Assembly (NCBI GenBank): GCA_016217545.1
Contig: JACRHT010000009.1
Coordinates: forward strand, 1-64,000
Source: Opitutia bacterium
GTDB taxonomy: Bacteria; Verrucomicrobiota; Verrucomicrobiia; Opitutales; Opitutaceae
DNA: 64,000 nt
Direction of reading: 5' to 3'
Position numbers and translations under genes: made by a program. Below, one piece after another: positions 4,964 to 28,118 of the stretch. A model generated the notes under the pieces. That model was not told the origin of the DNA. It did not search any database and worked only from the letters and a program-made list of their open reading frames with translations. Each line of letters starts with the position of its first letter. Positions within the stretch are counted from its first letter, which is position 1.

Positions 4964-5419
4964 CTACTTCGTGGTGATTTCCGCGGGCACTTCGCGGACG
5001 AGCAACTTGTAGTCGACCGCGGGGTCCGGCGTTACCATCGGCATTCGCGGTGGCACGAAAACTCCTTTTGCGATCGGCATGGGGGCGAGGCGCAGGACGT
5101 CCTTTTTCGGCGCGATGTGCATCGCGGGAAACTCGCCATCGCCCTGGGGCGTGATCGGTTTCGGATCGGGCAGAATCCACGGACGCGGGCTGGGGCGCCG
5201 CGGCGCCCGCGACGACGGTGCTTCGATCGTGATCGGCCCGAGTTCCGCGGCGCCGGACGAGAGGTCCGGCCGGAGCCGCCCATTCGGCAGGCGGAGGCGC
5301 AGATCGGGCGCCAAGATCGGATCGAGGACCTGATGTTCCTTGGTCGGATCGGGTGTGTAGCGCGCTTCCGCGGAGGCGCAGGTCGCGAGCAAGGCGACGG
5401 CGGTCAGGGCGATTTTCAT
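4964..5419 (-). CDS. small secreted proline-rich protein, unknown function
   Basis: 151 aa, not recognised. The first 18-19 residues form a clear signal peptide ending near CASAEA. The mature protein is rich in Pro, Arg and Leu, with no Cys after the signal and no catalytic motif that I can see. It converges with the DUF362-like gene, only 16 bp separating the two stop codons. Normal GC-rich codon use supports a real gene. Confidence 0.55.
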   Translation of the reverse strand: MKIALTAVALLATCASAEARYTPDPTKEHQVLDPILAPDLRLRLPNGRLRPDLSSGAAELGPITIEAPSSRAPRRPSPRPWILPDPKPITPQGDGEFPAMHIAPKKDVLRLAPMPIAKGVFVPPRMPMVTPDPAVDYKLLVREVPAEITTK

Positions 5420-5582: not shown

Positions 5583-5957
5583 ATGTCTTCCGCCGCCTAC
5601 CTGCCGATTCTCGTCCAAGTGACGCTCGCCGCCGTCATCACCGGCGGCGTCGTGGCCGCCAGCCATCTCTTCGGCCAGCGCTTCAAGAAAAACGCCATCA
5701 AGGACTCGGCCTACGAGTGCGGCATCCGCTCCGAGGGCAGCACGCACACGCGTTTCTCGGTGAAGTTCTACGTCACCGCGATGCTCTTCATCCTTTTCGA
5801 CATCGAGGTGGTGTTCCTCATTCCGTGGTCGTTCGTCTATCGCGATTTTCTCGCCAACCACATCGCGATTCTCGCGCCGATGCTGTTCTTCCTCGGCGTG
5901 CTCGTGCTCGGCCTTTTCTACGAAGTGCGCAAGGGCGCGCTTGAGTGGGAGAAGTGA
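5583..5957 (+). CDS. nuoA: NADH-quinone oxidoreductase subunit A (NuoA)
   Basis: Membrane subunit of respiratory complex I (NDH-1), at the junction of the quinone-binding and proton-pumping parts. 124 aa, typical for the family. Three transmembrane helices (about residues 7-28, 64-86, 94-115). The family signature is present: YECGIRSEG (about residues 43-51) and RFSVKFYVTAMLFILFDIEV (about 57-76), with the conserved acidic residues in the second helix. No nuoB or other complex I gene adjoins it; the next gene is the cyclase fusion, 118 bp downstream, so it is separated from any nuo operon. Confidence 0.93.
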   Translation: MSSAAYLPILVQVTLAAVITGGVVAASHLFGQRFKKNAIKDSAYECGIRSEGSTHTRFSVKFYVTAMLFILFDIEVVFLIPWSFVYRDFLANHIAILAPMLFFLGVLVLGLFYEVRKGALEWEK

Positions 5958-6075: not shown

Positions 6076-7428
6076 ATGCGGCTAGACAAATACATCACTC
6101 GCAGTCGCGTCGTCGACCTCGCCAGCGCCGACATGGAGGGTGCGCTGGAGGAGTTACTCAACCTCACGGTCGACCGCTTTCCGGATCTCGACAAGGGCGC
6201 GCTGCTGAAAGGCCTGCTGCGCCGCGAGAACACGATGACGACCTACCTCGGTCTCGGCGTCGCGCTGCCGCACGTGCGCGCGAAGATGGGCCGCCGTTAC
6301 GTCATCGCGATCGGCCGCAGTCATTATGGCATCCGCTACGACGGCGCCATCGAGAGCGAGCCGGTGCGGCTCGTGATCATGCTCATCGCCGACGAGCGCG
6401 CGCGCGATTACCTGCAGGTGCTCGCCTCGCTCGCGCGGTTGCTGAAGGAACAGGATTTCGTCGATAGCCTCGTCAACGCGCCCGACCTCGACACGGTCTA
6501 CGAGCGTCTCTTCGCCGGCTTCGGCGGCATCTCGGAAAAACGCGTCCAGACCTCGTCCAATCGCGTCAGCCACATCGTGCTCAAGGAGGCGGAGAAGATC
6601 GCCCGCAGCACCGGCTGCAAGGCGCTCATGATTTTCGGCGACACGTTCACCGGCAGCTTCGAGACGCCGAAGTGGGCGAGTTCGCTGAAGACCTACCTCG
6701 TCACGCGCAATCTCGTCGACGGCGAGGATCATCCCGCGCGCTACAACGAGACGATCCAGGTTCGCTCGTTCTCGAACCAGCGGCTCGCGCAACTGCGCAG
6801 CGCCGTGCTCGTCGGCCTGACGCGCGGCACGATCACGTTTTCGGACCGCCTGTGTTGCGTCGGCGGCATGGCCGGTTCGAACCAGTTCGACACGGTCGTC
6901 GTCGTGGACGTGGAAAAAGAGTTTCAGACGCTGCTCTCCGGCCACGCAGACCTCTTGCCGGAGGACGTGAAGCCCGAAGTGCTCGAGCGCGTGATCGGTG
7001 TGGCCATGGAGCTCGCCGTTGAGGGCCGCGAAGGCCGCCCGGTGGGTTGCCTGTTCGTTGTCGGCGACAGCGCGAAGGTCGAGAAGGCTTCGAAGCCGCT
7101 CGTGCTGAATCCGTTCTATGGCTACCGCGAGGAGGACCGGAACATCCTGAATCCGTTCATGGACGAGACGATCAAGGAGTTCTCGTCGGTCGACGGCGCG
7201 TTCATCATTCGCGGCGACGGCGTCGTCGAAACCGCCGGTTCGCTGCTCCAAGCCGCCGATTTCAACCACTCGCTGCCCAGCGGCCTCGGCTCCCGCCACG
7301 CGGCTGCCGCGGCGATCTCGGTCGCGGCGGATTGCATTTCCATCGTGGTTTCGTCGAGCACCGGCCAGGTGACGCTCTTCCGTCGCGGCGTGATGATGCC
7401 GTTGACGGAGAAGAAGGTAACCGCCTGA
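6076..7428 (+). CDS. PTS EIIA - pyruvate-kinase-C-like - diadenylate cyclase (DisA_N) fusion protein
   Basis: Predicted c-di-AMP synthase with a PTS-type sensory domain; cytoplasmic, no signal or membrane segment. 450 aa. Residues about 5-150 form an EIIA type-2 (fructose/Ntr) domain with GLGVALPHVRAK, the phospho-acceptor being His66. Residues about 160-290 (VLKEAEKIARSTGCKALMIF onward) resemble the pyruvate-kinase C-terminal-like domain seen before the cyclase in archaeal DacZ. Residues about 300-440 are the DisA_N domain: DGA at 373-375 and GLGSRHAAAAAIS at 403-415, so the canonical RHR is RHA here. A PTS phosphorylation input to c-di-AMP output is my inference. The ATG at 6076 follows the inverted repeat directly. 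Confidence 0.85.
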   Translation: MRLDKYITRSRVVDLASADMEGALEELLNLTVDRFPDLDKGALLKGLLRRENTMTTYLGLGVALPHVRAKMGRRYVIAIGRSHYGIRYDGAIESEPVRLVIMLIADERARDYLQVLASLARLLKEQDFVDSLVNAPDLDTVYERLFAGFGGISEKRVQTSSNRVSHIVLKEAEKIARSTGCKALMIFGDTFTGSFETPKWASSLKTYLVTRNLVDGEDHPARYNETIQVRSFSNQRLAQLRSAVLVGLTRGTITFSDRLCCVGGMAGSNQFDTVVVVDVEKEFQTLLSGHADLLPEDVKPEVLERVIGVAMELAVEGREGRPVGCLFVVGDSAKVEKASKPLVLNPFYGYREEDRNILNPFMDETIKEFSSVDGAFIIRGDGVVETAGSLLQAADFNHSLPSGLGSRHAAAAAISVAADCISIVVSSSTGQVTLFRRGVMMPLTEKKVTA

Positions 7429-24736: not shown

Positions 24737-25513
24737 TCAGTCGAGTTTGAAGCGGCCGTAGTTGCCGGTCCACGGGAACTGGCTCATGTCGATCGCCTGG
24801 CCGTTCACCTCGACGCGCAGCTTGCTGCGATCCTCGACGGTGATGCGCAGGATGCCGACCTTGCGGAAGGACCGCGTCTCGCCGCGGGCGAGCGAGCCGT
24901 CGAACACGATGCCTTGATCGGCATCGCGCACGACTTTGACGCGCGTGTTGTCCAAGGCGGTGAAGGTGAGCGTCTGCGCACCGGCGACGGCATCGATGCC
25001 GACGGGATTTTGCGGGGAGGATTGCGGGCCGGAGTTTTCCGCGGCGGCCTGTTTCGGAGCGGTCGGACGCGATTCGGTGCGGCTGGAAAGGACGTTGATG
25101 AGCAGCACGACCACGACGACGAGCACGAGCGCGCCGCCGCCGAAGAGGGCGTATTTCAGCATCACGGGGTCGAGGCCGTTGCCACCGCCGGTGGCGCGCG
25201 GCGCGGGCTCGGAGCCTTCGCCGCCGAGTTCGACGCGGCCGTAGTTCTCGCGCGTCTCGCGGCGCGGGGCGCGACCCTGGTCGGCCATCATCGTGTCGAA
25301 TTCGGACACGACGCGCACCGGATCGAATTCGAGATACTTTGCGTAGGTGCGCAGGAAGCCGCGGATGTAGAGCGGCGGCAGGTCGAAGTCGAACGAGTTG
25401 GCTTCGAATTTCTGGAGATAGTCGCCACGGATCTTCGTGGCTTCCGCGGCTTCGCGGATGGAGAGGCCCTTGCGCTTGCGCGCTTCCTCGAGTCGTTCGC
25501 CGAGCTTCTGCAT
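24737..25513 (-). CDS. RodZ-like protein (HTH, one membrane helix, DUF4115)
   Basis: RodZ links the MreB cytoskeleton to the cell-wall synthesis machinery and controls rod shape. 258 aa from the ATG at 25513 (MQKLGERLEEARKRKGLS). Residues about 1-75 form the Xre-like HTH_25 domain, including EAAEATKIRGDYLQKFE and LPPLYIRGFLRTYAKYL. A membrane helix is at about 121-142. Residues about 185-255 match DUF4115 in pattern. The open frame continues 29 codons upstream but the ATG at 25513 gives the family N-terminus. 49 bp after ftsK, same strand. Confidence 0.87.
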   Translation of the reverse strand: MQKLGERLEEARKRKGLSIREAAEATKIRGDYLQKFEANSFDFDLPPLYIRGFLRTYAKYLEFDPVRVVSEFDTMMADQGRAPRRETRENYGRVELGGEGSEPAPRATGGGNGLDPVMLKYALFGGGALVLVVVVVLLINVLSSRTESRPTAPKQAAAENSGPQSSPQNPVGIDAVAGAQTLTFTALDNTRVKVVRDADQGIVFDGSLARGETRSFRKVGILRITVEDRSKLRVEVNGQAIDMSQFPWTGNYGRFKLD

Positions 25514-25562
25514 GAGGGGACTTATTTCGGGTTGGAAGTGGGTTTGAAAGCTTAAAGCCGGA

Positions 25563-28118
25563 TCACGGCTCGTAGGTATCGAGATCGACGAGGATTTCAC
25601 GCGGGCTCGAGCCGTTTTCGGGGCCGACGATGCCCTTGTCTTCCATCACGTCCATGATGCGCGCGGCGCGGTTGTAGCCGATGCGGAGGCGGCGCTGCAT
25701 CATCGAGGTGGAGGCGCGGCGCGTGGACTTGAGGACGTCGAAGGCCTGGCGGAACAAGTCCTCGTCGTCGCCCAAATCGCCGTCGCTTTCGCCGCCTTCG
25801 CCGTCCTCGTCTTCCTCGCGTGCGGCGCGGTCGATCTGCTGCTGGACGGATTGGGCGTATTGCGGCGGGCCGTTTTTCTTCAGGAACTCGACGATCTCCG
25901 CGACTTCCTCGTCGGCGACGAAGGCGCCTTGCGCGCGGACGATGCGCGACGTGCCGGGCGGCGTGAAGAGCATGTCGCCGCGGCCGATGAGTGTCTCTGC
26001 GCCCTTGCCGTCAAGAATGGTGCGCGAGTCGACTTGCGAGGCGACTTGGAACGCGATGCGCGAGGGAAGGTTGGCCTTGATGACGCCGGTGATGACGTTC
26101 ACCGACGGGCGCTGTGTGGCGATGATGAGGTGGATGCCGGCGGCGCGGGCGAGCTGCGCGAGGCGGGCGATGCTCGTCTCGATCTCGGCCGGCGCGATCA
26201 TCATGAGGTCGGCCAGCTCGTCGACGATCGCGACGATGTAGGGCAGGCGCTCGGGGATCTCGATGTCGTCGGGCGCGACGCCGCTGAGTTCGCCCTGTTG
26301 CTCGGGCGGAAGCTCGACGGGTTTGTCCTTCTTGCGGTTGTTGAAGCCGGCGATGTTGCGGACGTTGACCTTCGCGAAGATCTGGTAGCGCTGCTCCATC
26401 TCGCCGAGCAGCCACTTGAGCGCGGCGGGCACTTTCTTCGGCTCCGTCACGACCGGAATGAGCATGTGCGGCAGCGAGTTGAAGACCTTCAACTCGACGA
26501 CCTTCGGATCGACCATGATGAGGCGCACGTCCTTCGGGCTCTTCGAGTAGAGGATCGAGGCGACGATGGAGTTGATGCAGACCGATTTGCCGGAGCCCGT
26601 CGCGCCGGCGATGAGCAAGTGCGGCATCTTCGTGAGGTCGGAGACGAGTGGTTTGCCGGAGACGTCCTTGCCGAGGGCGATGGGCAGCTCGGCCTTGGCG
26701 TGCGCCCAGTCCTCGCTCTCGAGAATCTCGCGCATGCCGACGGGCGTGGGCTTTTGGTTCGGCACTTCGACGCCGACGGCGGCCTTGCCGGGAATCGGGG
26801 CGAGGATGCGCACCGATTGCGCGCGCATGCCGAGGGCGATGTTCTTGTCGAGGCCGGAAATTTTTTCGACGCGCACGCCGGCGGCGGGGACGACTTCGTA
26901 GCGGGTGATGACGGGGCCGACGTGGATTTCGCCGAGGGAGACCTCGACGCCGAACTCACCAAGGATGCGGAGGAGATTCTCGGCGTTCTGGCGGTGTTCC
27001 TCCTCGGAGTTGGCGGCGTCGAGCTTCACCTGCTCCTTGAGGATCTTCAGCGGCGGGAATTCGTAGTTTTTGTCGTCGGTCTGTGGGAGGATGATCTTGG
27101 CCTTCTTGGTTTCCTCCGGCTTGACGATGTTGAGCTCGATCTTGCCGGCGGCGGCGACGGCGAGCTGCTTGGTGTCGGTGGCGGTCGGTGCGGGTTTGGC
27201 GGCGGGCTTCGTCGGGAGCGCGAGAGGCTTGGGCGCTTCGGAGTCGGCCTCGGCGGACGGCGCACGCGAGCCGGGCTTCGGCGCATCGGCGAGCGGGTCG
27301 TCGGATTTCGGAACGATGGGCTTCTTCGAGGGGGCGAGCGGCTGGGGCGCCGGGCCGGGGCGGGTGGGGGCGGCAGGCGCGGCGGCGGCCGCAGCAGCGG
27401 CGGCGGCTTTCTGCTTCGCGAACTCCTCTTTCTGTTTCTTGCGCTCCTCGGCGAGGGCGGCGGCGAGGGCCGCGCGCTTTTGGCGCCATTCCTGGAAATT
27501 GTGGAGCAGCTTCTCGAACTCGGCCGTGATGTCCCGCGTGAAGATGAACACCATGCTCGTCAGGTAGACGGCGGTGAGCAGGAAAAACGACCCGAAGCCG
27601 CCGAACGTCGATTCGAAGAACCCGTCGTAGAGCGCCTTGCCCGTCCAGCCGCCGGCGCCGGAGGGGTAGACTTGGCGATTCATGAACGCCAAGCCCTGCA
27701 TCGCGAGCAGCGGCGCGCCAGAGGCGAAGGAGAAGAACATCGCGATGAGCCGCGTGCCGGTGAGGTGGCGCGAACTCCGCACGTAGGTGACCGCCATCCA
27801 GAGCAGAAACACCGGGATGAGCCACGCCGCGCCGCCGAGGAATTTGAAGCTGAAAACCGAGATCACCACGCCCACGTCGCCGACGGGGTTTTTGTCCGCG
27901 GGCTGCAGCGCGATCTGCTGGAGTTTGCCGTTGATGACCTCGGTGCGGCTGCCGGATTGATCGAGGTAGTTCTGGCTCGGCGAATAGAACGCCATCGCGA
28001 CGAGCACGAGGATGCCGAGGATCGCGCAGAGCACGAAACCGCCCCAATTCGGCCGGTGGCGCGGCGCCTCGAACGAGGGGTTGGAGTCCTTGGGATTTGT
28101 GCTCGCAGCTTTGGCCAT
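25563..28118 (-). CDS. ftsK: DNA translocase FtsK
   Basis: Pumps chromosomal DNA through the closing septum. 851 aa. The N-terminal 190 residues have four membrane helices. An Ala/Pro/Lys-rich linker (about 225-335) follows. The motor has Walker A GATGSGKSV (about residues 504-512) and Walker B AIVDELADLM (about 630). The final 65 residues (LFRQAFDVLKSTRRASTSMM, RLRIGYNRAARIMDVME) are the gamma domain that reads orienting sequences. Shares a probable operon with the RodZ-like gene. Divergent from manA. Confidence 0.96.
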   Translation of the reverse strand: MAKAASTNPKDSNPSFEAPRHRPNWGGFVLCAILGILVLVAMAFYSPSQNYLDQSGSRTEVINGKLQQIALQPADKNPVGDVGVVISVFSFKFLGGAAWLIPVFLLWMAVTYVRSSRHLTGTRLIAMFFSFASGAPLLAMQGLAFMNRQVYPSGAGGWTGKALYDGFFESTFGGFGSFFLLTAVYLTSMVFIFTRDITAEFEKLLHNFQEWRQKRAALAAALAEERKKQKEEFAKQKAAAAAAAAAAPAAPTRPGPAPQPLAPSKKPIVPKSDDPLADAPKPGSRAPSAEADSEAPKPLALPTKPAAKPAPTATDTKQLAVAAAGKIELNIVKPEETKKAKIILPQTDDKNYEFPPLKILKEQVKLDAANSEEEHRQNAENLLRILGEFGVEVSLGEIHVGPVITRYEVVPAAGVRVEKISGLDKNIALGMRAQSVRILAPIPGKAAVGVEVPNQKPTPVGMREILESEDWAHAKAELPIALGKDVSGKPLVSDLTKMPHLLIAGATGSGKSVCINSIVASILYSKSPKDVRLIMVDPKVVELKVFNSLPHMLIPVVTEPKKVPAALKWLLGEMEQRYQIFAKVNVRNIAGFNNRKKDKPVELPPEQQGELSGVAPDDIEIPERLPYIVAIVDELADLMMIAPAEIETSIARLAQLARAAGIHLIIATQRPSVNVITGVIKANLPSRIAFQVASQVDSRTILDGKGAETLIGRGDMLFTPPGTSRIVRAQGAFVADEEVAEIVEFLKKNGPPQYAQSVQQQIDRAAREEDEDGEGGESDGDLGDDEDLFRQAFDVLKSTRRASTSMMQRRLRIGYNRAARIMDVMEDKGIVGPENGSSPREILVDLDTYEP

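Follow-up and report, generated by a model that had tools for sequence, protein, structure and literature searches.

Diadenylate cyclases (DACs) are classified by the domains attached to them, according to the accessible part of PMC6741144, which cites Corrigan and Gruendling (2013) for this scheme. As given there, DacZ and DacY/CdaZ carry a PK_C-like N-terminal domain, and Haloferax, which contains c-di-AMP, has DacZ as its single putative DAC. The same part lists five representatives of a further class, DacD, all of them Verrucomicrobia/Opitutae proteins (from Lacunisphaera limnophila, a Puniceicoccaceae bacterium, Coraliomargarita, a Verrucomicrobia and an Opitutae bacterium). As for the phosphotransferase system (PTS), KdpD has, by the accessible part of PMC6488665, unphosphorylated PtsN as an interaction partner and is bound and inhibited by c-di-AMP. 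Here we compare with these systems a fusion protein encoded in an Opitutaceae genome, within a window of 64,000 nucleotides, the whole stretch of DNA that was analysed. A 2023 review reportedly treats DAC domain architectures; to our knowledge, no diadenylate cyclase is known with demonstrated PTS phosphotransfer input.

The gene at 6076..7428 on the plus strand, with an ATG start, encodes an EIIA-DacZ_P-DAC fusion protein of 450 aa, a probable DacD-class diadenylate cyclase. All three Pfam domains scored above their curated cut-offs. They were a PTS_EIIA_2 domain at residues 14-145 (6115..6510, plus strand; PF00359, E = 8.9e-23, 81.3 bits versus a cut-off of 27), a DacZ_P domain at residues 166-285 (6571..6930, plus strand; PF21755, E = 3e-20, 72.6 bits versus 27.4), and a DAC (DisA_N) domain at residues 314-439 with D373-G374-A375 and G405-S-R407-H408 (7015..7392, plus strand; PF02457, E = 1.2e-21, 77 bits versus 27). 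An earlier note, made from the letters alone, had proposed a three-domain fusion of an EIIA type-2 domain with His66, a PK_C-like middle domain and a DisA_N cyclase. The profile search agreed with the three-domain fusion, the EIIA type-2 domain and the DisA_N cyclase, and the His is at its proposed position. The codon of His66, the predicted phospho-acceptor, lies at 6271..6273 (plus strand) within a G-x-G-V-A-L-P-H stretch. Tyr112 (6409..6411, plus strand) is found where PtsN has its second active-site His, as aligned in the PDB search.

In the PDB sequence search, the front part of the protein matched PtsN and the back part matched CdaA-type cyclases. PtsN/EIIA-Ntr was the best match of the front part in both sequence and fold, with the phospho-His conserved, but the fusion differs in having Tyr at the second active-site His and a cyclase attached. 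With NCBIfam, the PtsN model TIGR01419 reached 41.2 bits and so stayed below its cut-off of 138.7, as did the fructose-PTS IIA model, which matched residues 18-132. CdaA, CdaS, CdaM and DisA share the DAC domain and the D-G-A and R-H motifs with the fusion, whereas their family models match it only within residues 359-446. The archaeal DacZ/CdaZ has in common with the fusion, by the accessible part of PMC6741144, the PK_C-like domain followed by a C-terminal DAC; the EIIA part of the fusion is outside the DacZ match, which was confined to residues 238-440 (NF041371, 118.2 bits versus an equivalog cut-off of 430). Two further claims of the earlier note, that DacZ shares only the last two domains and that the characterised synthases have other partners, are consistent with these NCBIfam matches and, for the second, with the accessible part of PMC6741144.

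The full-length structure model had a mean pLDDT of 75.7 and a pTM of 0.44; with this pTM, single domains are usable and the domain packing is not. Foldseek with this model returned PtsN (E = 2e-9), DisA (E = 9.6e-8) and CdaA (E = 5e-7). The middle domain was modelled separately (residues 158-300; pLDDT 81.5, pTM 0.76). Among the 50 matches listed for it by Foldseek, 46 were chains titled pyruvate kinase, one was PKM2, and three were 3khd chains of PFF1300w, which we take to be the Plasmodium pyruvate kinase. The best E value against the pyruvate kinases was 1.7e-5, and the TM scores by query length were 0.53-0.64. The structure prediction thus found a fold like part of pyruvate kinase, as expected for a PK_C-like middle domain, with the matched part of the kinases not displayed in the output.

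The distribution of the fusion was surveyed in two genome samples. In the phylum sample (194 genomes), the full-length fusion was found in 18/18 genomes of its own family, itself included, and in 13/15 others of the order. In the order sample (35 genomes), 31 had any match and 27 had a full-length one. The partial matches were 29 residues at a contig edge (G206), a gene split across two contigs (G203), a protein without EIIA (G212) and one matching from residue 58 (G220). The fusion was not found in the order-sample genomes G198, G208, G209 and G102, which are 80, 50, 95 and 99% complete, respectively. Distant full-length fusions with 34% identity occurred in G035, G159 and G004 of the same phylum; Pfam found EIIA, DacZ_P and DAC in the G035 protein, and in that of G004 it matched EIIA and DAC only, with DacZ_P missing. 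The fusion is a real architecture common to many relatives. A sequencing or gene-calling artefact was ruled out by the full-length fusion in 27/35 order-sample genomes, and chance was excluded because full-length relatives, down to 34% identity, occur in other genomes of the phylum.

Of 363 relatives confirmed by a contig scan, the 80 best were retained. The titles among these best 80 of 363 were Opitutaceae, Opitutus, Lacunisphaera, Didemnitutus, Oleiharenicola and Rariglobus, and otherwise only Opitutia, Opitutae, Opitutales or Verrucomicrobia/Verrucomicrobiota; three Lacunisphaera-titled loci among them carry the fusion at 79-80% identity. The DacD class is listed from the same taxa, including Lacunisphaera, in the accessible part of PMC6741144, and the fusion protein probably belongs to it, a match made via taxa. 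The fusion class therefore appears to be already catalogued, at least by the accessible part of that source. The novelty implied by the earlier note is reduced accordingly. No functional study of the fusion or of DacD was found, and none of the literature titles and abstract beginnings listed dealt with the fusion, with many subscription papers out of reach.

In addition to the fusion, genome G172 encodes an EIIA-free DacZ_P-DAC protein of 291 aa, with only 29% identity (L044, 3941-4813, plus strand). An 840-aa frame in L043 had the look of another fusion; in its last 515 residues, the part scanned, Pfam matched no domains other than DacZ_P and DAC. In a tree of the EIIA domain only, 23/26 fused EIIAs grouped together with one stray row (L174), and the distant fusions L040, L041 and L042 took positions between stand-alone EIIAs, at weakly supported nodes (0.82-0.85). 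As the stray row is a wrong ORF, nothing was concluded from this tree about independent fusions.

Residue conservation was counted over 128 distinct rows (154 before rows sharing the same 160-residue core were merged), 124 of which have an EIIA domain. In the cyclase part, D373, G374, G405, R407 and H408 were invariant in 128/128 rows, and Ala375 was present in 122. The residue following R407-H408 is Ala in this protein; 114 of the 128 rows have Ala at this position and a single row has Arg, while the CdaA-type PDB enzymes in the alignments have Arg there (RHR). This replacement is the point in favour of a catalytically inactive DAC domain, with the protein acting as a PTS-linked regulator only. 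We consider such a loss of activity very improbable, given that D-G and G-x-R-H do not vary in any row and that the fusion holds the only DAC match in its 5.1-Mb genome. The protein is predicted to be an active enzyme and is the only putative c-di-AMP synthase detected in this genome.

In the EIIA-bearing rows, His66 was present in 119/124 (the exceptions being 2 Tyr, 2 Ser and 1 Cys), Arg50 in 117 and Glu51 in 122. Directly after His66, nearly all of the members read have Val, Ala or Leu, compared with Gly for PtsN in the PDB alignment. A second active-site His is a feature of EIIA-Mtl and PtsN. Tyr112, which aligns with a His of PtsN in the PDB alignments, stands in its place in 119/124 rows. 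Such a replacement would suit a diadenylate cyclase in which the EIIA serves as a protein-docking module, for example for K+ transport proteins as with PtsN, and phosphorylation is secondary or absent; the interaction of unphosphorylated PtsN with KdpD (accessible part of PMC6488665) points the same way. Docking alone, however, needs no such near-invariance of His66, Glu51 and Arg50. Moreover, Tyr at the second site is no mark of a dead domain, since it was also found in 13/19 readable other EIIAs from the phylum, the remaining 6 having His; these 19 were picked among the better matches to the fusion protein and not at random, and the twentieth was the wrong ORF L174. The stand-alone EIIA of the same genome (L052, 4998-5456, plus strand) shares with the fusion the Tyr at the second site and also an Arg at position +2 relative to the phospho-His. 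Tyr112 was accordingly rejected as proof of a dead EIIA. A residue as strongly conserved as His66 probably has a function, though its presence is not strictly tied to the PTS. We hold the docking explanation to be possible but on the doubtful side.

The presence of His66 was then compared with that of EI and HPr. Residue 66 was His in 25 of the 28 order-sample rows readable there, and 19 of these 25 members had both EI and HPr matches in their genomes. His66 was kept without EI and HPr matches in G199 and G216, with an HPr match but no EI match in G213 and G205, and without an HPr match in G201 and G210. Three of the EI-less His66 genomes (G199, G213 and G216) are 0.9-1.1 Mb in size and the fourth (G205) is 82% complete; draft genomes may simply miss genes. 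Tyr66 was found in G196 and G217, and Ser66 in G149 and G175 outside the order sample, despite EI and HPr. The EIIA of the Ser66 locus L033 (L033 and L045 correspond to G149 and G175) scored 23.9 bits versus the Pfam cut-off of 27. Both kinds of mismatch, an EIIA scaffold kept with His66 replaced where EI and HPr are present and a domain kept with its His66 where no EI was found, speak for docking. PTS control of the cyclase via phosphorylation, as proposed in the earlier note, would be an attractive link and is plausible.

Two order-sample genomes have lost part or all of this domain. The His66 motif was lost in G220 and the whole EIIA domain in G212, and neither EI nor HPr was found in either genome. 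An EIIA missing in one and eroded in the other, with the rest of the protein kept, would fit an inherited remnant, in which case the PK_C-like domain alone would sense a metabolite, as supposed for DacZ; the EIIA-free protein of G172 could be read in the same way. We judge this rather unlikely, as both losses occurred in genomes of about 1 Mb with no EI or HPr found, and outside them the EIIA is retained with a conserved His66. The joint loss of His66 and EI was evaluated on a tree of residues 158-450 with 37 rows, which gave a long-branch warning for G172b, G004 and G220; 31 rows entered the trait counts, with G203, G114, G172b, G035, G159 and G004 omitted. There were at least 4 changes of His66 (the domain loss of G212 counted as a loss) and 3 of EI on this tree, two of the His66 changes belonging to lineages that keep EI and HPr, and no trend towards joint loss was seen with only 3 independent pairs.

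The genome of the fusion also encodes EI and HPr. EI is a 603-aa frame (G000:C17:785810-787618, minus strand) in which each of the three EI Pfam domains was matched, HPr (G000:C3:272746-272982, plus strand) contains the stretch G-I-H-A-R-P, and a second HPr match and an HPr kinase were also found, so that the search for a ptsI/ptsH pair suggested by the earlier note turned up both partners. There were two PTS_EIIA_2 matches in the genome, the fusion and the stand-alone EIIA. As to c-di-AMP receptors, also suggested there, TrkA_C was found in two proteins, an Asp-Al_Ex permease and a Na+/H+ exchanger, in the latter as two stretches, and we take a TrkA_C Na+/H+ exchanger to be a possible c-di-AMP receptor type. 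No c-di-AMP riboswitch was matched among the 68 of 75 candidates scored in this genome. A riboswitch match was obtained in 1/35 order-sample genomes, with only 68 candidates scored in the larger ones; this sole match, L167, lies in G208, which is 50% complete and has no fusion match.

The neighborhood of the cyclase gene is conserved as well. Its directly upstream neighbor is nuoA, encoding complex I subunit A (5583..5957, plus strand; PF00507, 108.8 bits), which ends 118 bases before the cyclase gene on the same strand and is followed by it and not by nuoB. Among the best 80 of the 363 relatives, 79 named loci have nuoA as a same-strand neighbor at 9-171 bases; in the remaining one, L105, the sequence reaches just 158 bases upstream. 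Both genes were present in 24 order-sample genomes and were neighbors in 20 of them, with 7-233 bases between the domain matches, and in 14 of those 20 the adjoining nuoA was the only one found. They were not adjacent in G215, G205, G196 and G217, and no adjacency was found at the distant loci L040-L044. Elsewhere in the window, a 151-aa frame on the minus strand (4964-5419) lies between a DUF362-like gene and nuoA; it matched nothing in Pfam at E 0.1, and a search of 92 loci at E 1e-5 gave no relative. In addition, an FtsK translocase is encoded beside a RodZ-like helix-turn-helix protein (24737-28118, minus strand).

Our preferred reading, to which we give about an even chance, is a diadenylate cyclase whose output is tuned by EI-HPr phosphorylation at His66, with a PK_C-like inner module and a role in K+/osmotic control. 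The DAC domain would join two ATP into c-di-AMP, as its fold and invariant motifs suggest. The DacZ_P domain is probably an inner regulatory module, which may bind a small phosphorylated metabolite or form a dimer interface. The N-terminal EIIA, most like PtsN/EIIA-Ntr, would take phosphate on His66 from phosphorylated HPr, and the phosphorylation state of EI-HPr would in this way tune the output of the cyclase. The Ser66 and Tyr66 lineages keep an intact cyclase site, which makes it unlikely that activity depends on phosphorylation; phosphorylation would probably modulate the enzyme, and more likely inhibit it than be required. We infer that the likely output is K+/osmotic control. Since KdpD is a target of both PtsN and c-di-AMP in other bacteria, according to the accessible part of PMC6488665, K+ control would be a natural output. 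In favor of the reading as a whole are the domain scores and folds, the invariant cyclase motifs together with the near-invariant His66, the EI, HPr and HPr kinase genes, the wide distribution, the c-di-AMP of Haloferax and the TrkA_C exchanger. Counting against it are the mismatches between His66 and the PTS genes, the missing trend towards joint loss, Tyr112 and the residue directly after His66 as departures from PtsN, and the lack of a riboswitch match among the candidates scored in this genome.

A more far-reaching form of this reading is a PTS-gated synthase, in which EI-HPr would write the PEP/energy state onto His66 and so set the c-di-AMP level, the PK-like domain would read a metabolite, and the pairing with nuoA would add respiration. 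We put this forward only tentatively. The natural variants (Ser66, Tyr66 and domain loss), together with the EI-less genomes, make the PTS idea testable by comparison. PtsN and c-di-AMP are separate inputs on KdpD elsewhere, as far as the accessible part of PMC6488665 goes, whereas a PtsN-like domain and a cyclase form one protein here. If the PTS-gated reading is true, this one protein would join the carbon/energy state to K+ homeostasis, and the conserved nuoA-cyclase gene pair would bring respiration into the same circuit.
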